Source: Thioploca sp.
Lineage (GTDB): Bacteria; Pseudomonadota; Gammaproteobacteria; Beggiatoales; Beggiatoaceae
Direction: 5' to 3'
DNA length: 33,963 nt
Assembly (NCBI GenBank): GCA_030627235.1
Contig: DAOUSL010000021.1
Coordinates: 1-33,963, forward strand
This document shows positions 386 through 23,376 of the stretch, one piece after another. Position 1 is the stretch's first letter. Each line of letters opens with the position of its first letter. A program made the translations under genes and the position numbers. The notes beneath the pieces are model-generated. The model did not search any database and was not told the DNA's origin. It was given only the letters and a program-made list of their open reading frames with translations.

Positions 386-2071
386 ATGAGTTATAAAATG
401 TTTAAATTTTTCATACTTTTAATAATTTTTTTTACTATTATAAGTTGCGAACAACAAGAAACTAAAATTACATCAGAAACCAAGAATTCAATTTCTCACT
501 CTGATTGTGAAAATATAAAAAGTTGCTTACGCATACCATTAGGTGGCAAGGTTAAAACTATTGATCCTGGTATGGTTAATCAAGTATTAGATTATATAGT
601 AGTTGATCAACTATTTATTGGTTTAACATCTTTAGAAAAAAATACCTATAATGTGATTCCTGCTTTAGCAACTAGTTGGCAATCCAGTGCAAATGGTACA
701 GTTTATACATTTACATTACGTCAAGATATAACTTGGAGTGATGGAAATCCAATAACCGCTCATGATTTTGTATGGACGATTCAACGCAATCTTGCCAAAG
801 AAACTAAATCTTCTAATGTTTCTGCATTATTTATTATTAAAAATGCTGAACTTTTTCACAAAGGTGAAGTAGATAAGAAAGTGGTAGGTGTACATGCAAT
901 TGGAGATTATAAACTTAGTTTTGAACTTGAACATGCAGCTGGATATTTTCCTTCTTTAGTAAATTTAAGGATTTATCGTCCTTTACCTAAAAATGTTATT
1001 ACTAAATATGGAACAAACTGGACTGATCCTGATAAGATAGTATCTAGTGGCCCTTATTATCTAAATGATTGGGAGAAAGGTAATAAAATTAGCTTAAAAA
1101 GAAATCCAGCATATTATGCAAAAAGCCAAGCTAATATTCAGGAAATTTATTACTATATAGTACCGGAAAATTACATTGGTTTGACTATGTATGAGAAAAA
1201 TGATTTGGATATAATAGGTGGTTTATATCTTAAATTACCACAAACCGAAATCCCTCGGATTGAAGAAAATGCCCAATTATCTAGTGAAATTCAAATGGGT
1301 CCTCAAGGATGTACTGAATGGTATGGATTTAATACCAAGCGATTTCCAACTAATAATATAAATGTTCGTAAAGCTATTTCCAGTGCTGTTAACAAACAAT
1401 TATTATTAGAAGTGGTATTTGGTGATAGTAACGTTCCAGCAGAAACTATCACACCTTCATGGTTACTTTCAAATAAAGATGAAGAAAAAATAGGCTTACA
1501 ATTCAATCCTAAACAAGCCAACGAATTTTTAACTCAAGCAGGTTATTCTAAAGGTAAAGCCTTCCCAGAAATTGTATTAATGCGTAGTACTGGAGAAACT
1601 GATGATCTAGAAGTTTCAAAAGCAATTAAAACTTTTTTAAAACATTATTTAAATATTAATATCAATGTAGTTGATTTAGCATCTAATCGCTATATGGCAA
1701 CTATATTTGGTAAACCATTTGAAGAAAGACCACATATTTTTCGAATCCGTTGGTGTGCTGACTATCCAGATCCAAATGATTTTTTATATCAACTTTTTCA
1801 TCCTGATAAAGGCTATTTTGGTTGGTTATTAACTGACGAAGAACTTAGGCAAGAATTAACCGAAGTTCTCGAAAAAGCTCAATGGGTTACCGATCCAATT
1901 GAACGTAAAATATTATATCGCCAAGCTGAAGAAATCTTAGTAAAAAAAGCTGCTGTCGTTATGCCTTTATATTTTGATAATGTACAATTTTTGGTAAAAA
2001 ACCGAGTGAAAGGTTGGTATAATATGGCTTTTGGTGGTCAACATATTCTTAACTGGTCATTGGAAAATTAG
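386..2071 (+). CDS. Oligopeptide-binding lipoprotein (OppA/DppA type, SBP family 5)
   Basis: Extracytoplasmic solute-binding protein of ABC family 5, which normally delivers oligopeptides to an Opp/Dpp permease. A hydrophobic signal segment (about residues 6-20) ends in IISC, a lipobox with Cys21, so the mature protein is probably anchored in a membrane. Family hallmarks are PALATSW near residue 91, the YTFTLRQDITWSDG block near 108 and VSSGPYYLNDW near 216. The 561-residue length is normal. No permease or ATPase gene lies nearby; instead a ligand-gated-channel fusion follows after 12 bases, almost certainly in the same operon. No clear Shine-Dalgarno precedes the ATG; a second ATG at 398 would also give a good signal peptide. 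The ligand is unknown. Confidence 0.9.
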   Translation: MSYKMFKFFILLIIFFTIISCEQQETKITSETKNSISHSDCENIKSCLRIPLGGKVKTIDPGMVNQVLDYIVVDQLFIGLTSLEKNTYNVIPALATSWQSSANGTVYTFTLRQDITWSDGNPITAHDFVWTIQRNLAKETKSSNVSALFIIKNAELFHKGEVDKKVVGVHAIGDYKLSFELEHAAGYFPSLVNLRIYRPLPKNVITKYGTNWTDPDKIVSSGPYYLNDWEKGNKISLKRNPAYYAKSQANIQEIYYYIVPENYIGLTMYEKNDLDIIGGLYLKLPQTEIPRIEENAQLSSEIQMGPQGCTEWYGFNTKRFPTNNINVRKAISSAVNKQLLLEVVFGDSNVPAETITPSWLLSNKDEEKIGLQFNPKQANEFLTQAGYSKGKAFPEIVLMRSTGETDDLEVSKAIKTFLKHYLNININVVDLASNRYMATIFGKPFEERPHIFRIRWCADYPDPNDFLYQLFHPDKGYFGWLLTDEELRQELTEVLEKAQWVTDPIERKILYRQAEEILVKKAAVVMPLYFDNVQFLVKNRVKGWYNMAFGGQHILNWSLEN

Positions 2072-2083
2072 ATTGGAATAACT

Positions 2084-4429
2084 ATGATTAATAAAATTAA
2101 TATTGGAATATTATTTCTAATTGTAGCTATTATGGCTGGAATTATAATTGGAAAAAAGCTATTTTACACTGATAATAATTCGTACATAGCTTTGGTCGGG
2201 CCAATGCAAAATAGCAATGGTGAAGCAATGCGGCAAGGCGTACAAATGTATTTAGATAAAGTAAATAAGCAAGGTGGTATTGGTAGTAAAAAAATTAAAT
2301 TATTACAATTTGATGATCAAAATCAATATGAAGTTGCCAAAGAACAAGCATTGAATATTGTTGATAGTAAAGCTCTTGCAGTTATTGGTCATTATGATAG
2401 CAAAGCTTCTATTGTGGCTGGTCAAATTTATAAACAATACGGTATTTCAGCAATTACTGGCAGCGCCACAGCTGATAGAATAACTAAAAATAACGATTGG
2501 TATTTTCGAGTTATATTTAATAATAGTGATCAAGGAGCATTATTAGCAAATTATACTAAAAAAATTCTCAATTTTAATAAAGCTTACATTTTTTTTGATG
2601 CCGATCCTTATGGTGAAAGCCTCGCAAAAACTTTTACTGAAACAGCCGACCGCATTAGGTTAAATATAGAACATAAATGGAGCTTTACTGAAGAAACTGG
2701 TAGTTTTGAGGATAATTTTAATAAAATGCTTAAAACTTTAGAAGAAGAAAGTGAACCAGGTATGTTATTTTTAGCAACTCATTCAAGTCATGCCATTAAG
2801 GCAATAGCTGGATTAAGGCGATTAGAAAATAAAATACCAATCATTGGTCCAGATGCTCTAGCAAGTAGTTACTTCATGAAAACTTTAAAGGAAAGCTATC
2901 CGCAGGAAAAAAATTATCCTGGTTATTATACTGAAGGAATTCATATGGCATCACCATTTATAGTCGGTATTGCTGGTAAAAAAGCTCAAGATTTTAAACA
3001 TGAATTTCTTAAACAAGGATATTCGATAAGTTCTATGATTACTTCAGCCTTATATTATGATGCAGCTATGGTTGCTGTAAATGCTTTGCAAAAACTTACA
3101 GATGGTGAAAATATTTCTATTAAGGAAAAACGTACACAAGTTAGAGAAAATTTAGCTAGTTTTTCTAAAGCGACCAGTGCAATCGAAGGAGTTACTGGTG
3201 GGATATATTTTGATAAAAATGGTGATGCTATCAAAATGATACCAGTAGCAGTTTTCAATAAAGGCAAACCAATTTCTACTTTGGAACAATATCAGCCGCT
3301 AGCCAATTTACGTAATGTAAACAACTTATTGCTTGATATATTACAAAATAAAACTATTCAAGTTAATGGCAAGTTTATGACTAAAGCCAATGTTGTTTAT
3401 GTTGGAGTAGATTTTAATAGTATTAGTGCCCTTGATTCAGGCAATTCGACTTATACAGCTGATTTTTACATCTGGTTTAGATATAAAAGTAGTGATGATG
3501 AGAATTTTTCTAATATAAATTTTACTAATATTTTTAATCCTAGTCATGATTTAAGTAAAAAACATTTATTTTTGGAAAAAACCTCCGAAATTTATAATAC
3601 TACTACTAAAACTTATCGGATTAAAACTCAATTTAAAAGTAATTTTGATTTTCATGACTATCCTTTAGATAATCAGGTATTAACCTTAGAATTACAACAT
3701 AAAAATCTTACTAAAGATAAATTAATTTATGTAGTAGATGTTCGAGGTATGAAAAAACAAAATTTAGATAAAAGTAATTTTTTTGCTATTGGTGGTTGGA
3801 AAATGAATAAAATAGCCTTCTTCCAAAATGGTCAAAGAAGTGATTCAACTTTTGGGATGCCAGAATTATTTGATTCTCAACAACGCATTGAATATTCTAG
3901 GTTTAATGTAAATATAGATATTGATAGATATGTGTTAAGTTTTATAATTAAGAATTTATTGCCTACGATATTCATCATTATATTAGGTTATGTAGTTTAT
4001 TACACTACTACTTTTGGCCTAAGAATGACTTTAAATATCAATATGATTTTAGCAACTTCATTATTTCACCTAAAACTTGCTTCATCATTATCTGCAATTG
4101 AATACAATGTGTTAATTGAATACGTGTTTTATATGGTTTATATGATGGCTATATTAGGTGTTGTTGCATCACTCATTATCAATCATATGGAAGACAAATT
4201 AAGTGGCCATAAAGAATCATTAGAAAAGATGAAAGATACTAGTGGAATTGATGGTGAAGATGGAGAAAGTTTTATTGGAGACTCTGCTTATAGAACCAAG
4301 ATTGAAATGACGGAAGGTAAGATTAGTCAAGACCAAAAAACTATTAAAAATATAATCTTAACTGGTAGAATTAGTTATCCAATCATAATCTTATTGACTT
4401 TAATTATATTAAGTTACGGTAAGTTATAA
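2084..4429 (+). CDS. Type-1 periplasmic binding protein fused to a pentameric ligand-gated ion channel
   Basis: Residues 7-25 are a signal or signal-anchor helix. Residues about 34-400 form a branched-chain-amino-acid-type (LivJ-like) binding domain: IALVGPMQNSNGEAMRQGVQ, then AVIGHYDSKAS and a late YYDAAMVAVNAL. Residues about 430-615 look like the beta-sandwich extracellular domain of a Cys-loop/Pro-loop receptor, with TADFYIWFRYK and the signature FHDYPLDNQ at 523-531 (Pro527, Asp529, Gln531). No flanking disulfide cysteines are evident, as in bacterial members. Four membrane helices follow: M1 about 617-641, pore-lining M2 about 646-668, M3 about 675-697, M4 about 764-779, with a charged 65-residue M3-M4 loop. 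Such fusions are known in a few bacterial genomes. It is cotranscribed with a peptide-binding lipoprotein. Ligand and ion selectivity are unknown. Confidence 0.88.
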   Translation: MINKINIGILFLIVAIMAGIIIGKKLFYTDNNSYIALVGPMQNSNGEAMRQGVQMYLDKVNKQGGIGSKKIKLLQFDDQNQYEVAKEQALNIVDSKALAVIGHYDSKASIVAGQIYKQYGISAITGSATADRITKNNDWYFRVIFNNSDQGALLANYTKKILNFNKAYIFFDADPYGESLAKTFTETADRIRLNIEHKWSFTEETGSFEDNFNKMLKTLEEESEPGMLFLATHSSHAIKAIAGLRRLENKIPIIGPDALASSYFMKTLKESYPQEKNYPGYYTEGIHMASPFIVGIAGKKAQDFKHEFLKQGYSISSMITSALYYDAAMVAVNALQKLTDGENISIKEKRTQVRENLASFSKATSAIEGVTGGIYFDKNGDAIKMIPVAVFNKGKPISTLEQYQPLANLRNVNNLLLDILQNKTIQVNGKFMTKANVVYVGVDFNSISALDSGNSTYTADFYIWFRYKSSDDENFSNINFTNIFNPSHDLSKKHLFLEKTSEIYNTTTKTYRIKTQFKSNFDFHDYPLDNQVLTLELQHKNLTKDKLIYVVDVRGMKKQNLDKSNFFAIGGWKMNKIAFFQNGQRSDSTFGMPELFDSQQRIEYSRFNVNIDIDRYVLSFIIKNLLPTIFIIILGYVVYYTTTFGLRMTLNINMILATSLFHLKLASSLSAIEYNVLIEYVFYMVYMMAILGVVASLIINHMEDKLSGHKESLEKMKDTSGIDGEDGESFIGDSAYRTKIEMTEGKISQDQKTIKNIILTGRISYPIIILLTLIILSYGKL

Positions 4430-9395: not shown

Positions 9396-11189
9396 TTAAG
9401 CCAATTTCTTTACTAAAACAAGCTCATGGTTACAACTACTCAAAACATTAAATTGCATTTTAAAAACTTCGCTTAAAATCCCAGCAATATAGTATTCTTT
9501 AAGCTTATTATAATAATAATTATTATCTTCTACTCTTAAAGCAACTAAAAATAAACCTTCTGGTTTTAAAATACGAATCAACTCTTCAAAAGAATTTAAT
9601 GGCACTTGTTGGCGAGTAAAAACACCACAGGATACTAATGCATCAAATGAATTATCTGCAAAGTCCAGCGTTTTGCCTAATTCTGTTTTAAATAATCCGT
9701 TATAAATATTAAATGTTTTAGCAAATTGTAAAGACTTTTCACTAATATCAAGCCCATCAAGGTTTTTGAAATTATATGAACTAAGTTCTTTACCAAGCAA
9801 ACCAGTGCCACAACCAATATCTAAAATTTTATCATCTGTAGTTAAATATGAAGTTAAGGTATACGCAACGTGAGTCAATAACTTCTTCCAGCCATTTTGA
9901 TGATGTTGCTGATCGTAGTCTGATACCCAATTATCGTACTTAGATATGACCTCATTTAAATCTTCAAAAGAAGAAGTCAATCCAGTTGGATAATCAACTT
10001 GATTTTCTTCTGCTACTATTTTATATAAAACATCTTTAATAATATATCCTATTAAATCAATATCATCAGTAGTAAATGATAAAGATAATTTTAAATCACA
10101 GGCAAAACATACAAATTCATCTGTTTGTTTTAGGACAGGTATTTCTTTAAATGAGTAATGCCAATTTTTAAAATAACGAGAGTTATCCTTGTGGCCAAAT
10201 AATTGGATTTTAACTCCTCTTTCTGAGGTCTGTTGAACAAATTCGTTAGCTTGTTTAATCGTTAAGTTAATGAGATTAAATTGTAAACTATCACAGACAC
10301 GAGTGACAGATTTTAAAGATTTAGGTATATCAATATTATTAGCTGGAGCTAAAATATTGGTTAATTGTTTATATTTTTTATTATATGCAGAAATTCTTTC
10401 TTCTAATATCGGGAGTTGTGGTCTTAAAATAGCAGCAGTTAAGTTATTCATTCTAAGACTAAAATTTGGTACTGACAATTTAATTTCTTCAAATATATGA
10501 TTATCAAAAGGTCGAGATAGATGTTTTTGGTATAATTTTTCATAAGAACCTGCTGCCAAAATACAATAGGCTGCTATTTTATCATCATCAGTTGCAATAA
10601 AACCGCCTTCTCCAGAATTTAAAAGTTTATAACTTTGGGAACTGAAACAAGCAATCTGTCCATGATGACCAGTTAGTTTATCTTGCTTAGATTTTTTATC
10701 GTACCATTTTGCACCTAAACTATGAGCACAATCTTCAATTAAGCAAATATCAGCCTCATCGCAAAGTTCTTCGAGTAGATCCATTTCTGAAACATAACCA
10801 CGCATATGAGATACAATAAAAAACTTAGCATCAGGATTAGCTTCGATTTTTCTTTTGCAATCATCTATATCTAATAGATATTGATTATTACATTCAATAT
10901 AAATTGGAATTCCACCAGCATGAACAATGCTACTAGGAACAGCTGTAAAAGTAAAAGCATTGGTCAATACTTTCTCACTATGTTGCAATCCAGCTGCTTT
11001 AAGACTTAAAAAAAGGGCACTACCGCAAGAATTGACAGCGACAACATATTTATGACCAGTATAATGGCTAAATTCATCTTCTAATTTAGCAACTTCAGTG
11101 GCCGGTTCATCTTTTAAATCTGAAGAAACAGTCTCTTCACAAATTTCAGCATCAAAATGATAACGAAATAAATAACCAGTTTCCATCAA
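9396..11189 (-). CDS. DegT/DnrJ-type sugar aminotransferase fused to a SAM-dependent methyltransferase
   Basis: Residues 1-390 form a PLP-dependent aminotransferase of the DegT/DnrJ/EryC1/StrS family: substrate loop NAFTFTAVPSSIVHAGG, IEDCAHSLGA, and the PLP lysine Lys188 in QSYKLLNSGEGG. Residues about 415-597 are a class I methyltransferase with motif I ILDIGCGTG (455-463) and a FADNSFDALVSCGVF motif. Family members usually make amino-sugars for surface polysaccharides; an attached methyltransferase is unusual and suggests N- or C-methylation of the aminated product. The start is doubtful: open frame continues upstream to 11258 with a plausible extra N-terminus (residues such as KFTKKTHPASIPQEG) and a good Shine-Dalgarno before an ATT codon (separate entry). 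The first ATG is at 11186, with a TTG at 11189. Confidence 0.88.
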   Translation of the reverse strand: MMETGYLFRYHFDAEICEETVSSDLKDEPATEVAKLEDEFSHYTGHKYVVAVNSCGSALFLSLKAAGLQHSEKVLTNAFTFTAVPSSIVHAGGIPIYIECNNQYLLDIDDCKRKIEANPDAKFFIVSHMRGYVSEMDLLEELCDEADICLIEDCAHSLGAKWYDKKSKQDKLTGHHGQIACFSSQSYKLLNSGEGGFIATDDDKIAAYCILAAGSYEKLYQKHLSRPFDNHIFEEIKLSVPNFSLRMNNLTAAILRPQLPILEERISAYNKKYKQLTNILAPANNIDIPKSLKSVTRVCDSLQFNLINLTIKQANEFVQQTSERGVKIQLFGHKDNSRYFKNWHYSFKEIPVLKQTDEFVCFACDLKLSLSFTTDDIDLIGYIIKDVLYKIVAEENQVDYPTGLTSSFEDLNEVISKYDNWVSDYDQQHHQNGWKKLLTHVAYTLTSYLTTDDKILDIGCGTGLLGKELSSYNFKNLDGLDISEKSLQFAKTFNIYNGLFKTELGKTLDFADNSFDALVSCGVFTRQQVPLNSFEELIRILKPEGLFLVALRVEDNNYYYNKLKEYYIAGILSEVFKMQFNVLSSCNHELVLVKKLA

Positions 11190-17223: not shown

Positions 17224-19884
17224 ATGGTCACCAATGTTAAATTAAAATACAAATTAATTTTATTGTTATTATTACCACTGTTAGGCTGGTTATATTTTTC
17301 TATAGGTTTAGTGACAAATAAGTTACAATTTAATAGTGAAATAAAAAATTCGGTTGAAATAACTGAATTATCTATTTTACTTAGTGATATTGTACATGCA
17401 ATCCAATTAGAACGGGGTTCTAGTAGCCTATTTTTTATCAAACAGCAATTTAGTAATGAATTACAACAATATCAGACTAAAACTGATACCAAAATTTTAT
17501 TACTAACTGAATTTATTAAAAGTTTTACCTTAGATAACGCTAAATTTAAAATAGAATTAGATAAAATTTTAGAAAAATTAACTAATCTTGAGTTAATTCG
17601 TAATAATATTATAGCTTTAACCATATCACAATCAGAAGCAATCAAAAAATATACTGCAATAAATAAGTTAATCTTTGATTTTGTTATACATACTACTCAT
17701 ATTTCTAGTTATAAAGATGTCTTTCCATTGAAAATGGCCTATATTAACTTTTTACGAATTAAAGAAGAAGCTGGTAAAGAGCGAGCTTTATTGGTAGCTA
17801 TTTCAGCTCAAAAAAACATAAAACCACAGCAATTACGCCAGTTAAATGAACTAATATCAATTCAAAAATATTATTTAAAACATGATATTATGAAGTATTT
17901 AACAGATTCTCAAATAGAATTATTAACTAATAAATTAGCATCTGCACAAGTAGAGGCAGCAAATAAAATTCGAGAGATAGTGATAAATTCATCAAAATTA
18001 CCAGCTAAAATTGATTCTGAACAATGGTTTAATGTTCAAACTGGTAAAATTGAAATCTTTAAAGAAATTGAGAATGTAATAGCTAATGATTTAATTAGTA
18101 AAGCTAAAACCAAATATACTAATAATAATAGTGAACTATTTTATTTAATACTAACAATAGTTTTTAATTTAAGTTTAATTATCATATTTTTTGTGATTAT
18201 TTTAAAAAATACTACAACTCGTTTAAATCAGGCAGTAAAATTAGCTAAATCTATAGCTGATACTAATTTAAATAATCAAATAGCGACTGATCAAAAAGAT
18301 GAAATAGGCCAACTATTACAGGCATTTGATAGTATGCAAACTCAATTGCGAGAACGAATTAAGCAAAATAAATTGATTACTGATAAAGCTATCCGAATTA
18401 ATTTAGCTTTAGATCGAGCTACTACTAATATCATGATTACAGATAGTAATTACGACATTATTTATATCAATAAAGCAGCTCAAACATTGTTCATTAAATA
18501 CGAATCCCTAATTCAAGCTAAAATTCCTCAATTTAATGCCAAACAGGTATTAGGTTCTAATTTTAATTTATATCATCAAGAAAATTATCAACATAAACGG
18601 CAAGCATTAGAAAATATAAAAACAACTCATCGTGCTAAAATTGTTATTGGGAATATTATTTTAGATCATATTATTACCGTAGTAACTAATGACAAAGAAC
18701 ATCTAGGAATTATTATTGAATTTACAGATCGTACTATTGAAGTAGCAATTGAGCAAGAAATTAATACAGTTATTCAGGCAGCTTCAGGCGGTGATTTTAG
18801 ACCACGTATTAGTATGGCAAATAAGGAAGGTTTTTTTGATATATTCGCAACCAGCATTAATGAAATTATGGATTTCAATCAATCTGTAATTGAAGACCTT
18901 ATGCGAATTATTTCTGCATTAGCCGAAGGTGATTTAACTAAAAAGATTGAAAATGATTATGTGGGAGCATTTGACCAATTAAAACATGATATTAACACTA
19001 CAGTTACTAAATTAACAGAAGTTATCACAGCAATGTTGCAAACTGCTACAATGGTCAATGGAGTAGCAGAAGAAATTTCTCAGAGTAATTTAAGCCTTAG
19101 TAAACGTACTGAATCGCAAGCTTCCTCATTAGAAGAAACTGCTGCCAGCGTTCAACAAATTACCGCTACTATTCAACAAAATGCCAATCATATTTCCAAA
19201 GCTAATGAATTAGCAGAAAAAGCCAAACAAAAGGCTAAAGATGGTGGAGAAATCATCAATGCAACTATACAGGCAATGACCGAAATAGATAAAAGTAGTA
19301 AAAAAATATCTGATATTATTGGAGTTATTGATGAAATTGCTTTCCAAACTAATTTATTATCCTTAAATGCTGCTGTAGAAGCTGCCCATGCTGGAGAACA
19401 AGGACGTGGTTTTGCGGTTGTAGCAACTGAAGTAAGAAATCTAGCTCAACGCAGTGCTACAGCGGCAAAAGAAATTAAAATTTTAATTCAAGATAGTGCA
19501 ATTAAAGTGAATGAAGGAACTAAATTAGTCAATCAATCTGGTGAAACTTTATCTAAGATTTTATCTGCCAGCAAAAAAGTTAATGATATTATTGCAAATA
19601 TTGCTGCTTCTACTAAGGAACAGTCTTCTGGGATTCATCAAATAAATATGTCTATAGCTCAAATTGATGATATGACCCAACAAAACGCTGAGTTAGCTGA
19701 AGAAGTTTCGTCAACCGGTGATTTAATGAAAGAACATGCTAAAAAGTTAGAAAAACAAGTAGCATTTTTTAATGTAGGCGATTTATCTAGTAAGCTGGTT
19801 AAAAAAATTATTGAGATTCCTCCAGTTAAAATCCCTAGCTTACCTTCAAATATTGAAAATGATGGAGGTTGGGAAGATTTCTAA
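17224..19884 (+). CDS. Methyl-accepting chemotaxis protein with NIT sensor domain
   Basis: Membrane chemoreceptor of 886 residues. Helix 12-30 leads into a periplasmic NIT-type (nitrate/nitrite-sensing) domain of about 45-295, recognised by the [13 protein letters not shown] helix. A second membrane helix (about 305-326), a HAMP domain, a PAS-like segment ([19 protein letters not shown], about 400-500), a second HAMP-like stretch ([11 protein letters not shown]) and the signalling domain follow; its hairpin tip reads [20 protein letters not shown]. The C-terminus GWEDF (882-886) resembles the pentapeptide that docks CheR/CheB. The start has an AGGA site 8 bases upstream. It is first in a tight run with a heme-type kinase and a ferredoxin fusion, so redox or electron-acceptor taxis is likely; the actual ligand is unproven. 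Confidence 0.93.
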
Positions 19885-19925
19885 CTTTCCGAACCAAAAA
19901 TTATAGTAATTAGAGGAGAAAAACT

Positions 19926-21926
19926 ATGCAGATTCAAACCAAATTATTACTTGTTATTGGAATTAGTTTATTTTTGATTTTCATAGGAGTAGAACTAATT
20001 AGTTATCAAAATACTAAACAAGAAATAAAAACTAGTTTACAAGAACAAGCCGAAAAAGTCAGAAGTTTATTAATGGCTTATCGACATGTGCAGCAAACTG
20101 CTTTTTTAGTAAATGATATTCCGTTAAATGATATGACAATTAATTTTCTACCAGCTTATGCCATAGGCCGAATTTCCGAAGATTATCCTAATTGGGACGC
20201 TTCTGGTTTTAGTTTTAATAATGTCTCAGATCAACCACGTAATCCAAGAAATACTGCTGATAAACTTGAGTTAGAAGCAATGGATTATTTTCGTGCTAAT
20301 CCAACAAAAAAGTTATTATTTGAACCATTTATAAATGATGATAAACAATATTATCTATATGCTCGTCCTATTTGGATAGAAAAACATTGTTTAAAATGCC
20401 ATGATAAACGTGAAGATGCTCCAGAAACAATTCGTAAATTATATGATACAGCTTGGAATTATAAGCTCGGTGATTTACGTGGAATTTTAAGTATAAAACT
20501 ACCAACTTCTACCATTACGGATAGAGCTTGGTCTTCTTTTAAGCAAGATATAATTACTCAATTAATTGGTTTTATCGTTATTTTTATATTAATATTATTA
20601 CTTATTAGGCGTAGTGTAACTCAACCATTAAATAAGCTAGCTAATAGTATTCAAATTTTTGCCTATAAAGATCATAAGCATAGATCCATTGAATTTGAAG
20701 GAGAATTTGGAATTTTAAGCCGTGCTTTTAATAATATGGCTGATGAAATGACAGCTCAACAAAAAATATTGCAGAATGAAGTAAAAGCACGTAAAACAGA
20801 ACAAGATTTTTTACAACATGTTATAGATTCGCTTAATCATCCTTTTTATGTAATAAATACAAACACTTATGAAGTTGAATTGGCTAATCTATTTATGCAT
20901 AAATTTGATTCTGAATCATCAATAGCTTGTCATAAATTAACTCATCATCAAGATAAACCTTGTAATAATATTAATACCCCTTGCCCATTAGCAGAAGTGA
21001 AAAAAACTAAACAATCAGTAATTTTAGAACATATTCAATATGATAAAGAAGGCAAGCAGAAAAATATTGAGATACATGGCTTTCCGATTTTTGATAATCA
21101 AGGTAATGTCATTAAAATGATTGAGTATTCTTTAGATATTACCAAACGTAAAGCTAATGAAAAAGCATTGCGAAACAGTGAAAAACATTTGTCAATTGCC
21201 TTAAAAAAAGCTGAAAAAGCCAATCAAGCTAAAAGCCAGTTTTTAGCAAATATGACTCATGAACTTCGTACTCCAATGATAGCTGTTATGGGTTATACTG
21301 AACTTTTATTAGAAGATACTGAAATTACAGAAGAACAAGAATATTATCTGAAATCTGTTGTTACTTCGTCTAAAAATCTAATTGGAATAATTAACGATAT
21401 TTTAGATACTTCTGCAATTGAAGCAAAAAAAATGGATATTAAAAAAATAAGTTTTCAATTAGATGAGTTATTGAACAATTTACTGGATTTATTTAATAAA
21501 GATGCGAAAAATAAGGGAATCCAATTACAATTAGTAACTTGTGATAATATACCTGCTAAACTTATTGGCGATCCATTACGAATCAGACAAATATTGATTA
21601 ATCTTATTAATAATGCAATTAAATTCACTAAACAAGGTGAAATAATTGTTGACATAAAAGTTAGTAATTTAAAGACAGAACAAGTAACATTAAAGTTTTC
21701 AATCCAAGATACTGGAATCGGTATTTCAACAAAAGCAATGCCTTATTTATTTGATACATTTACTCAAGCTGATAACAGTTACACTCGTGAATTTGGTGGA
21801 GCAGGATTAGGATTAGCGATCTGTAAACATTTAATTGATATGATGGGTGGTTACATATGGGTAGATTCCAAATTAGATAAAGGTAGTACATTTAACTTTA
21901 CAATTGTATTAGATTTTGAACATTAA
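19926..21926 (+). CDS. Membrane histidine kinase with c-type heme (DUF3365-like) sensor and PAS domain
   Basis: A 666-residue sensor kinase. A signal/membrane helix (5-22) is followed by a periplasmic DUF3365/Tll0287-like domain with CLKCH at 155-159, a covalent heme c motif. Membrane helix 208-228, HAMP (about 229-280) and a PAS domain (about 295-410) with a Cys/His-rich patch (CHKLTHHQDKPC, then CPLAEV) come next. The catalytic core has HisKA THELRTP with phospho-acceptor His445, NLINNAIKFT, DTGIGI and GGAGLGLAIC. No receiver domain is attached and no response regulator is adjacent. A strong GAGGAG site lies 7 bases before the ATG. Gaps of 41 and 13 bases to its neighbours indicate an operon. 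It probably senses redox state or a gas. Confidence 0.93.
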   Translation: MQIQTKLLLVIGISLFLIFIGVELISYQNTKQEIKTSLQEQAEKVRSLLMAYRHVQQTAFLVNDIPLNDMTINFLPAYAIGRISEDYPNWDASGFSFNNVSDQPRNPRNTADKLELEAMDYFRANPTKKLLFEPFINDDKQYYLYARPIWIEKHCLKCHDKREDAPETIRKLYDTAWNYKLGDLRGILSIKLPTSTITDRAWSSFKQDIITQLIGFIVIFILILLLIRRSVTQPLNKLANSIQIFAYKDHKHRSIEFEGEFGILSRAFNNMADEMTAQQKILQNEVKARKTEQDFLQHVIDSLNHPFYVINTNTYEVELANLFMHKFDSESSIACHKLTHHQDKPCNNINTPCPLAEVKKTKQSVILEHIQYDKEGKQKNIEIHGFPIFDNQGNVIKMIEYSLDITKRKANEKALRNSEKHLSIALKKAEKANQAKSQFLANMTHELRTPMIAVMGYTELLLEDTEITEEQEYYLKSVVTSSKNLIGIINDILDTSAIEAKKMDIKKISFQLDELLNNLLDLFNKDAKNKGIQLQLVTCDNIPAKLIGDPLRIRQILINLINNAIKFTKQGEIIVDIKVSNLKTEQVTLKFSIQDTGIGISTKAMPYLFDTFTQADNSYTREFGGAGLGLAICKHLIDMMGGYIWVDSKLDKGSTFNFTIVLDFEH

Positions 21927-21939
21927 TTGGTAAAAAAAT

Positions 21940-23376
21940 ATGCCAGAATTATTAACTATTCCTCGTGCAGCACGTTTAGCCGGAGTTTCCAGAGGTGAAT
22001 TGCAAAAACATATCCGTACTGGAAAATTAGAAACTTTTGAAGGTAAAATCACAATAAGTAATCTTTTGCGTTTATATCCAGTTATTGATATGAACAATAA
22101 TCCAATGTTGGAAAAAGTAGCAAGAATTAAGTTAGATGCTGCCAAAGATAAAGGTAAAACTGATACAGCATTACCTAGTTCCGCAGTATTAATGTCTCGG
22201 TTACAAGAATTTAGCGAACTATTAATTAACTTAAAAACGAAGTTAAATAAGCATAATAATCTATTTCAAGAAGTTGTTGAACGAGTTGATAACTTACAAC
22301 AAACAGATAATTTAAAAACTGAAGTTGATAATCTAGCTCAATGGTTAACGGATAAAAATAGCCAGTTACAAGATAGCAAAAAACCAGATGATAAGGCTAA
22401 ATTATTTGTTAGAGATACTTTCTTAAGATTCATAGCCGCTCAAGTAAAATTTGTTCCCAGTGGTAATGAATTTTTTGTAGAAGGCTCTGACTCTCTATTA
22501 GCATCTGCCATACGAGCTGGTCTTAAACCAAACTATGGTTGTAGTGGTGGTGTTTGTGGTTCTTGTAAAGCTAGAGTAATAACTGGTGAGGTAAAGAAAA
22601 TTCATGAACATGACTATGTATTAAGTGAATATGAGAAGGAAATGAACTACATGTTGATGTGTTCTAACACTGCTATCACTGATTTAACTATAGAAGCTGA
22701 AGAAGCTAAAACCCCTAGTGATTTACCATTACAAGAGATTCGAGTTATAGTCAAAAATAAAAAATTATTAAATGACAATTTGATGGTTTTAAATTTGCAA
22801 ACACCACATACTAAAACTCTACGTTTTATGGCTGGTCAAAATATTAAACTTATATTAGATAAGGATATTAAGGAATTGCCTATTGCTAGTTGTCCCTGTG
22901 ATGGACATAACTTACAACTACATGTTAAGAAAACAGATAGTAATTTCAGTAATATCATATTTAATGATTTAAAACTTGGCCAAACAGTTTCATTAGAAGG
23001 GCCTCATGGTGATTTTGTACTATCAAATTACAATAATCCAATCGTATTTATTACTCAAGACCATTTTTTTGCTCCAATAAAAAGTTTAATTGAACATGCG
23101 ATTTCTACTGATACAGTGGAATCTTTACATTTATATTGGATTGCAGAAACCGGACATTATTTAGATGGCCTATGCCGTTCATGGCAAGATGCTTTGGATA
23201 ATTTTTCCTATAATCCACTACAAAAATTTGCCGAACTTGAACAACAATTAAAGCAATTTTTACCAACAGTATCTGATCTAACCGAGTTTTATATATCTGG
23301 GAACAATGAAGTGGAAGCTATTTTACTTAGTCATGGAATTAATAAAGATAAAATACACAAGAATAACTTAACTTAG
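21940..23376 (+). CDS. HTH - 2Fe-2S ferredoxin - ferredoxin-reductase-like fusion protein
   Basis: A 478-residue cytoplasmic protein. Residues 1-50 look like a small excisionase/MerR-type helix-turn-helix (TIPRAARLAGVSRGELQKHI); 85-145 are helical and probably coiled-coil. Residues about 155-255 are a plant-type ferredoxin with Cys201, Cys206, Cys209 and Cys241 (CX4CX2CX31C). The C-terminal part resembles CDP-glucoseen/phenol-hydroxylase-type reductases: FMAGQNIKL, LPIASCP in the FAD region, then FITQDHFFAPIKSLIEH, where active relatives have GGTG before FAPIKS. The NAD(P) phosphate loop therefore seems lost. I infer a redox-responsive DNA-binding regulator rather than an enzyme; it lies 13 bases after the heme kinase gene. 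Confidence 0.85.
   Translation: MPELLTIPRAARLAGVSRGELQKHIRTGKLETFEGKITISNLLRLYPVIDMNNNPMLEKVARIKLDAAKDKGKTDTALPSSAVLMSRLQEFSELLINLKTKLNKHNNLFQEVVERVDNLQQTDNLKTEVDNLAQWLTDKNSQLQDSKKPDDKAKLFVRDTFLRFIAAQVKFVPSGNEFFVEGSDSLLASAIRAGLKPNYGCSGGVCGSCKARVITGEVKKIHEHDYVLSEYEKEMNYMLMCSNTAITDLTIEAEEAKTPSDLPLQEIRVIVKNKKLLNDNLMVLNLQTPHTKTLRFMAGQNIKLILDKDIKELPIASCPCDGHNLQLHVKKTDSNFSNIIFNDLKLGQTVSLEGPHGDFVLSNYNNPIVFITQDHFFAPIKSLIEHAISTDTVESLHLYWIAETGHYLDGLCRSWQDALDNFSYNPLQKFAELEQQLKQFLPTVSDLTEFYISGNNEVEAILLSHGINKDKIHKNNLT

Follow-up and report, generated by a model that had tools for sequence, protein, structure and literature searches.

Inheritance of an OppA-class lipoprotein gene as a pair with a gene for a binding-domain/ligand-gated ion channel fusion in Thioploca and its relatives

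Introduction

Neurotransmitter receptors have bacterial relatives, and what these sense and what they are for has long been a question. The closest described systems are the acetylcholine-receptor-type ligand-gated ion channels (ART-LGICs) of Tasneem et al. 2004 (PMC549065), the accessible passages of which report, for "some" bacteria, channels fused to type-I periplasmic binding proteins (PBP-I) and channels in operons with type-II binding proteins (PBP-II), and propose a role as chemoreceptors. Here we describe a gene pair of this kind in a stretch of 33,963 nucleotides (nt) from Thioploca sp. (GenBank assembly GCA_030627235.1, contig DAOUSL010000021.1, forward strand; the whole stretch is referred to as the window). 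A gene for a peptide-binding lipoprotein of the OppA class (denoted SBP5) precedes a gene that, by its domain matches, joins a LivJ-like binding domain to a pentameric ligand-gated ion channel (pLGIC). Because PBP-I fusions and PBP-II operons have been known since 2004, the pair is a variant on an established theme; the remark of the first-pass annotation of this DNA that such fusions are known in a few bacteria agrees with the PBP-I fusions described in the passages mentioned. We find that inheritance has kept the two genes paired across long evolutionary distances.

Results

Layout of the gene pair

The two genes occupy positions 386-2071 and 2084-4429 of the window on the same strand with a gap of 12 nt, exactly as they had been described in the first-pass annotation. 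Their features are as follows (window coordinates, all on the forward strand).

386-2071, +: SBP5, OppA-class peptide-binding lipoprotein, 561 residues (SBP_bac_5, E 1.3e-75; solved relatives, E 7e-62 to 3e-32)
437-448, +: lipobox IISC of SBP5, residues 18-21 (pattern match)
1760-1762, +: Asp459 of SBP5, at the position of the Asp in the OppA motif WCADY (alignment to 9rd1 and 3tcf)
2084-4429, +: fusion of a LivJ-like binding domain to a Pro-loop receptor channel, 781 residues (Pfam, TIGR00860, profile against GLIC)
2096-2164, +: N-terminal hydrophobic helix of the fusion, probably an uncleaved membrane anchor (model, N-termini of relatives)
2174-3298, +: type-I periplasmic binding domain of the fusion (SBP6, LivJ-like; Pfam, profile, structure search, LivJ alignment)
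3299-3931, +: pLGIC sensor domain of the fusion (extracellular domain, ECD; TIGR00860, profile, alignments)
3650-3676, +: Pro-loop FHDYPLDNQ of the fusion, residues 523-531 (sequence, alignment of relatives)
3932-4426, +: pLGIC membrane domain of the fusion (transmembrane domain, TMD), M1-M4 (model, GLIC alignment)
4013-4087, +: M2 pore helix of the fusion, basic at 0' and 17', no acid at -2'/-1' (model, GLIC alignment)

A scan for promoters and terminators revealed no terminator-like site between the two genes; its 37 promoter-like sites, against 27.9 expected, were uninformative. With SBP5 as a separate gene 12 nt upstream of the channel gene on the same strand, the pair has the layout of a predicted PBP-II operon, and this arrangement is conserved in relatives.

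Domain assignment of the two proteins

SBP5 matched the Pfam family SBP_bac_5 with 255.2 bits (cut-off 32.4; E 1.3e-75), and the best eight of its 17 solved relatives carry the name oligopeptide-binding. In OppA, the Asp of the WCADY motif is the site for the peptide N-terminus. This OppA-type Asp, D459 in the window protein, is present in 36 of 44 partner SBP5s. By these matches SBP5 is assigned to the OppA-class lipoproteins.

In the fusion protein, Peripla_BP_6 matched residues 37-391 (E 2e-26; 93.9 bits, cut-off 31.7). The Pfam matches to the channel part, Neur_chan_LBD (E 8.8e-5, 22.5 bits) and Neur_chan_memb (E 4.9e-4, 20.9 bits), lie below the single-protein cut-offs of 26 and 28.1, respectively; in the genome-level search the former reached 27.3 bits, which is over its cut-off. 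TIGR00860 matched with E 8.7e-14 and 51 bits, far below its cut-off of 280. A profile built from 23 fusion relatives matched GLIC across the ECD and TMD (profile positions 453-756, E 2e-20), and the single sequence aligned to GLIC over part of this span. P527, D529 and Q531 of the Pro-loop and R615 at the end of the ECD were each found in 23 of the 23 pLGIC-type relatives. In the AlphaFold model (mean pLDDT 77.4), helices M1-M4 comprise residues 617-640, 644-668, 677-720 and 733-780; the ECD is modelled poorly, with blocks of 38-67 over residues 441-600. Foldseek searches with this model or with that of a relative carrying an MscS pore yielded, among the matches listed, binding-domain or class C receptor structures throughout, those of the fusion including ectodomains of metabotropic glutamate receptors (mGluRs); the pLGIC fold is therefore without confirmation from the structure search, the ECD of the window model being of low confidence. 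Taken together, the Peripla_BP_6 match and the match of the relatives' profile to GLIC assign the second gene to a fusion of a LivJ-like domain with a pLGIC, as the first-pass annotation had read it, and sequence and model bear out its Pro-loop at residues 523-531 and its four membrane helices.

An additional hydrophobic helix at model residues 7-27 had been absent from that annotation. Eight of 23 relatives carry 35-45 residues with 5-10 Lys/Arg ahead of this helix, which is therefore probably an uncleaved fifth membrane helix acting as an anchor. That the fusion is an artefact of frame or annotation was ruled out, since the frame is open and the same fusion occurs in many genomes.

Conservation of the pair

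To describe the neighbourhood of the channel gene, we scanned loci in a search seeded with the window's relatives and tallied the best 80 of 176; close kin are over-represented among them and the rows are not independent. The tally comprises 74 pLGIC-type, eight MscS-type and four SBP1-fused channels; six cut rows, three of which contain SBP5, and one row classed as "other" stand outside it. An SBP5 gene lies upstream on the same strand of 51 of the 74 pLGIC-type channels: directly in 37 cases, ahead of the second channel of a tandem in nine and, as judged by eye, in a further five. The script alone counted 46 of 74. The additions by eye were L104, L129 and two channels of L146, where an opposite-strand open reading frame (ORF) had broken the script's walk, and L124. 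At the latter locus, SBP5 is itself fused directly to an MscS channel (L124:961-3843), followed by an MscS gene and then the pLGIC fusion. Overlaps or gaps of at most 20 nt were seen for 19 of the 37 direct neighbours; gene starts were set mechanically, so that intergenic gaps are approximate. SBP5 was found upstream of none of the eight MscS-type and none of the four SBP1-fused channels, one channel in each of these classes having less than 1.5 kb of upstream DNA.

A separate set of relatives, which includes the window's own genome, yielded SBP5 upstream on the same strand for 20 of 25 pLGIC-type fusions without SBP1. These numbers were read from the table (two rows are cut by contig ends, L071 has an intervening opposite-strand ORF and the SBP5 of L052 is frameshifted), and share many loci with the 51 of 74, so that the two counts are not independent. 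The pairs are patchily spread over phyla.

The observation of a pair of SBP5 and channel fusion is thus confirmed. The first-pass annotation had proposed that it would fall if the genes were not neighbours in relatives; they adjoin in most, and their adjacency survives a reversal of gene order.

Reciprocal searches and co-inheritance

A search seeded with SBP5 covered 26 genomes including the window's own, 17 of them from the same family (out of 25 same-family genomes in the fusion scan). It yielded an SBP5 subfamily of 16 genes, all in the window's family, and one 29%-identical gene in another family. Of these 16 genes, 15 adjoin a channel. A pLGIC-type channel was seen in ten of the 17 same-family genomes, and all ten have SBP5 (the channel of G003 is cut); no SBP5 was found in the other seven, several of which were assessed from match length and open frame alone, and the completeness of G001 is only 63%. 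Among 299 sampled genomes of the phylum, with at most four candidates scored per genome and matches listed at E 1e-45 or better, there was one further member of the subfamily at 42% identity, all others listed outside the window's own genome being at most 31% identical. This SBP5, which belongs to a distant family, adjoins an SBP6-ECD-TMD channel in reversed order with an overlap of 4 nt. At 28 loci of low-identity OppA relatives, no match to the LivJ-like, ECD or TMD parts of the fusion was present within ~1.5 kb. The SBP5 subfamily is therefore nearly confined to the channel pair in the genomes searched. Chance adjacency was rejected on the basis of the conserved pairing, the reciprocal SBP5 searches and the reversed-order pair.

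Comparison of the distance matrices of 44 pairs gave a correlation of r 0.50. Exchanging partners within genomes did not attain this value in any of 5000 trials (mean 0.33, best 0.486), nor, in another 5000, the r of 0.61 obtained for the 30 gammaproteobacterial pairs (best shuffle 0.607). The 44 pairs include the cut channels of L094 and L095 and the partial SBP5 of L093, and leave out L124 and L148. A tree of 98 fusions falls into two sides, one with 53 SBP5-linked and seven unlinked channels and the other with the MscS-type, the SBP1-fused and the remaining channels; the SBP5 label needs six changes on this tree, compared with 32.8 on average after shuffling. Many clades of the fusion tree recur in the SBP5 tree. 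Both trees are quick searches supported by the Shimodaira-Hasegawa-like approximate likelihood-ratio test (SH-aLRT) only, and three outgroup rows of the SBP5 tree are long-branched. Collectively, these data demonstrate that the pairs are inherited as units in a partner-specific manner, which falls short of proving contact.

Exchange of the second binding protein

What serves as the second binding protein differs between lineages. In a separate part of the tree, an SBP1-type domain follows M4 of the channel (L011, L068, L069, L073 twice, L074 and L126), which presumably places it on the periplasmic side, given pLGIC topology. At 12 Thermodesulfobacteriota loci, the partner is a fusion of a LivJ-like domain with SBP5 of 905-960 residues, followed by one or two channels (L118, L127 and L139 by Pfam, the nine others by phmmer); such a partner hints that docking takes place between LivJ-like domains. 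In Xenococcus, one locus carries a separate SBP_bac_8 gene that shares 47 nt with the channel gene, and in a gammaproteobacterial locus the gene for an NMT1_3 binding protein is found 90 nt ahead of the channel. Unrelated genes (guanylate cyclase, MlaD, UreD, Uma2, sulfatase and others) lie upstream of other unlinked channels. Seven other pLGIC matches in the phylum served as a control: judged from protein starts, one adjoins the gene for a PhnD-like binding protein and one a Cache-like gene, in agreement with the theme of Tasneem et al. 2004.

Two further gene families recur at these loci. A gene for an OPT oligopeptide transporter is located directly downstream of the channel in four loci; the sole OPT gene found in the host genome sits on another contig. 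A SPFH/Band_7 gene is present next to the binding-protein and channel genes in 13 loci, as assigned by cluster, with two checked by Pfam. At L017, in addition to these 13, an SPFH-like gene is followed by the gene for a LivJ-like lipoprotein with, by its sequence, a repeat-rich OmpA-like C-terminal part (L017:1453-4110).

L011:3127-6642 and L126:5746-9513: SBP_bac_1 domain fused after M4
L098:6842-8584, L110:8120-9964 and L161:8117-9814: OPT genes (Pfam)
L149:4986-6731: OPT gene (BLAST cluster)
L114:8192-9076, L118:300-1244 and L139:2345-3217: SPFH/Band_7 genes
L017:608-1447: SPFH/Band_7 gene, by its sequence

Exchange of the pore

The pore is also exchanged between lineages, pLGIC against MscS. 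The MscS-type proteins share both sensor domains with the pLGIC-type proteins: the ECD profiles align with a probability of 100 and E 6e-57, whereas the membrane parts do not align (probability 15). Their Pfam content is Peripla_BP_6, MS_channel_2nd and, in some, cNMP_binding. Seven such genes are encoded by the host (six by Pfam, that of L015 by phmmer), two with a cyclic-nucleotide-binding domain.

L012:3442-6843 and L012:7195-10134: host MscS-type genes
L013:5244-8615 and L008:293-3202: host MscS-type genes
L014:5787-8672, L015:5828-8761 and L016:5136-8090: host MscS-type genes

Both pore types retain Y439, W464, N482, D552, G591 and S605 in the body of the ECD, and P527, D529, Q531 and R615 are kept in 0, 3, 0 and 0 of 24 MscS-type proteins. 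That the Pro-loop has been lost along with the pLGIC pore agrees with the known place of this loop at the boundary between sensor and pore. The model of one MscS-type protein has a mean pLDDT of 80.8, and its ECD blocks mostly range from 66 to 92. Known MscS channels are heptameric.

Two other arrangements were seen. L165:5780-9154 encodes a protein of 1124 residues with LivJ-like and pLGIC sensor domains, in which no hit to a pLGIC pore or MscS and a weak one to AAA_22 were obtained. At L135:2000-5905 and L170:2168-5986, both of Thermodesulfobacteriota, an MscS-type gene for ~1300 residues extends 4 nt into the beginning of a pLGIC fusion (Pfam for L135 only, phmmer for both).

Predicted ligand site and pore

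In LivJ, residues S79, T102, Y150 and E226 are ligand contacts, and Asp121 holds the ligand amino group. Alignment to the LivJ structure 1z15 places the four contacts on S106, T129, Y176 and D257 of the fusion protein; D121 corresponds to N147 (Asn in 42 of 44 sequences) and Y202 to H233 (His in 33 of 44). As judged from this alignment, the site of the fused domain looks amino-acid-like but altered.

The M2 helix of the fusion was aligned to that of GLIC without gaps. An acid at -2' or -1' occurs in one of 42 relatives and not in the window protein, and a basic residue occupies position 0' in 35 and position 17' in 32 of the 42. The window M2 thus lacks the acidic ring of cation-selective pLGICs. 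According to PMC9897478, every known cation-selective pLGIC carries such acidic rings, and the pore is accordingly predicted to pass anions and not cations.

Host genome and other genes of the window

The host genome comprises 4.58 Mb in 471 contigs, the window being contig 186. Its nearest named relatives are Thioploca, Thiotrichaceae metagenome-assembled genomes, Ca. Halobeggiatoa and Ca. Parabeggiatoa, followed by Thiomargarita, and we take the host to be a large sulfur bacterium of the Beggiatoaceae type. The fusion has 14 matches in this genome at E <=10: three pLGIC-type channels (in the window and on contigs C254 and C126), two channels that bear an SBP1-type domain at the C-terminus as well (one on C429, the other broken, at C282), seven fusions with an MscS channel, a LivJ-like lipoprotein without channel (C193) and a short piece of the C126 gene. 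Proteins related to the fusion are numerous per genome: a scan that covered the relatives as well counted 13 matches in the host and 17 in one relative, a few of them consisting of the binding domain only. Elsewhere in the window, positions 17224-23376 hold in a row a NIT (nitrate-sensing) chemoreceptor, a histidine kinase and a ferredoxin-reductase-like gene, and positions 9396-11189 a methyltransferase fused to a DegT-type aminotransferase.

Discussion

On balance, we favour the reading that the two genes encode one ligand-gated receptor with two binding proteins; that two ligands gate it is our inference. SBP5, lipid-anchored in the periplasm, would bind a peptide or peptide-like compound and dock on the binding or sensor domain of the channel, the fused LivJ-like domain would bind an amino-acid-like compound, and both binding proteins would jointly set the opening of a pentameric pore that is predicted to pass anions. 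An open pore would shift the membrane potential, and a gliding or filamentous cell would in this way be informed of protein-breakdown products; the OPT transporter encoded in some operons may take up the same class of compounds. That the two genes evolved together suggests that giant and filamentous sulfur bacteria convert two chemical signals into an electrical one. The first-pass annotation had likewise proposed a two-receptor chemosensory channel. The part of that proposal in which the peptide-type protein works with the channel has gained strong comparative support; for contact, gating and chemosensing, we infer as it did.

Several observations weigh against this reading. SBP5 is missing beside 23 of the 74 pLGIC-type channels (three with less than 1.5 kb of upstream DNA), and these 23 include all 11 cyanobacterial channels. 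In the host itself, the channel on C126 is unpaired, and the exception to pairing in the SBP5 subfamily is the host's own unlinked gene on C84. This gene may be the lost partner of the C126 channel; the SBP5 tree leaves it at an open fork together with a number of linked gammaproteobacterial groups, including the partners of the nearest kin of C126. The OppA-type Asp is absent or gapped in eight of the 44 partner SBP5s. Both D121 and Y202 of LivJ are replaced in the fused domain, so that its ligand need not be an amino acid, and the prediction of anion passage is drawn from sequence only. Adjacent genes that are inherited as one cassette would, moreover, produce matching trees even without contact of their products.

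A further point against it is that genes for an OppC-type permease component (OppC_N, one hit) and Opp-type ATPases (oligo_HPY, three hits) are scattered elsewhere in the host genome, which makes a role of SBP5 in uptake possible. For this reason the chief rival is shared regulation only, in which SBP5 would feed a scattered Opp or OPT transporter, the channel would sense a ligand of its own through the LivJ-like domain, and the genes would be transcribed together because both answer to protein-breakdown products. The OPT genes downstream of the channel in four loci and the retained Asp of SBP5 are consistent with this rival as well. It does not predict, however, that other lineages fuse a second binding domain to the channel, nor does it sit well with the near absence of the SBP5 subfamily without a channel in the genomes searched. 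No Opp permease was found beside any of the host's five SBP5 genes in the stretches examined, on which ground membership of SBP5 in a local Opp operon was rejected. We regard shared regulation with uptake as rather unlikely. The same result bears on two statements of the first-pass annotation: an Opp operon using this lipoprotein, which had been named as a refutation, did not appear beside these genes, and the description of SBP5 as an orphan holds for its surroundings, with a role in transport still conceivable through the scattered genes.

SBP5 might instead be a constitutive auxiliary subunit for stability or periplasmic placement of the channel, its peptide site being idle or structural. 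Inheritance of the pairs as units would be expected of such a subunit, and the eight SBP5s without the Asp fit it; conservation of this residue in the other 36 and the arrival of OPT peptide transporters in four operons make it improbable. Least probable of all, to the point where we give it little weight, is hitchhiking, in which filamentous bacteria would pass the pair between them as a single mobile cassette and the two genes would not work together. The patchy spread of the pair over phyla is in line with such movement, and PMC6390638 reports gene transfer between filamentous gliding bacteria, yet the adjacency outlasts a reversal of gene order, the pair is retained over deep divergence in both trees and other binding proteins hold the same position in other lineages.

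If the favoured reading of one receptor with two binding proteins is right, evolution itself names the partner of the channel: a peptide-binding lipoprotein, which offers a concrete class of ligands, peptides, and a candidate auxiliary subunit. A broader and distinctly more tentative proposal is that of a modular receptor family in filamentous or giant bacteria, with a fixed sensor (the LivJ-like and pLGIC sensor domains), a swappable second binding protein (lipoprotein, C-terminal fusion or another class), a swappable pore (pLGIC, predicted to pass anions, or MscS, some with a cyclic-nucleotide domain) and opening by two ligands jointly, one a peptide and the other amino-acid-like, the current of which might steer gliding or signal along the filament. 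Were it true, the MscS form would represent a pLGIC sensor driving an unrelated pore. The MscS-type sisters in any case provide a natural domain-swap experiment on the coupling of sensor and pore in this receptor family. Large sulfur bacteria glide or form filaments, and with so many of these proteins per genome, electrical signalling is worth asking about in them.

Comparison with known systems

In titles and abstract openings, we found no description of an MscS/Cys-loop fusion and none of an SBP5/channel pair, and our literature search found nothing linking Beggiatoa with a ligand-gated ion channel; the terms "periplasmic", "fused" and "Beggiatoa" are all absent from the available text of Jaiteh 2016 (PMC4795631). 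Not met in the literature searched are the channel-tied SBP5 subfamily, the combination of both Tasneem themes in one system, the C-terminal second binding domains, the SBP6-SBP5 partners, OPT in the operon and a pLGIC sensor on an MscS pore.

The ART-LGICs of Tasneem et al. resemble the window pair in that PBP-I is fused to the channel and a separate binding-protein gene occurs in the operon. The text passages of that study differ in containing no case with both themes, no channel-tied SBP5 subfamily, no C-terminal second binding domain, no SBP6-SBP5 partner and no exchange with MscS. DeCLIC is, like the window fusion, a prokaryotic pLGIC in which extra N-terminal domains (NTDs) influence gating (PMC9897478, PMC12664993); according to the relevant parts of these papers, its NTDs are two jelly-roll lobes and not a periplasmic binding domain, and a partner lipoprotein is not mentioned there. 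GLIC, the proton-gated channel of Gloeobacter, shares with the fusion the ECD, the four-helix TMD, the Pro-loop region and an ungapped M2, whereas its aligned chains are without a fused binding domain and its M2 has Glu at -2' in place of the Gly of the window protein. SBP5 has the SBP_bac_5 domain, lipoprotein signal and WCADY Asp of the OppA-class proteins, unlike which it is without an adjoining permease; identity to it does not exceed 31% for ordinary relatives in the 299-genome sample, and is 42% or higher for the pair members from that sample and from the SBP5-seeded search. The ionotropic glutamate receptors (iGluRs) and mGluRs also use a type-I PBP domain as extracellular sensor; the pore of iGluRs is unrelated, and mGluRs have none.

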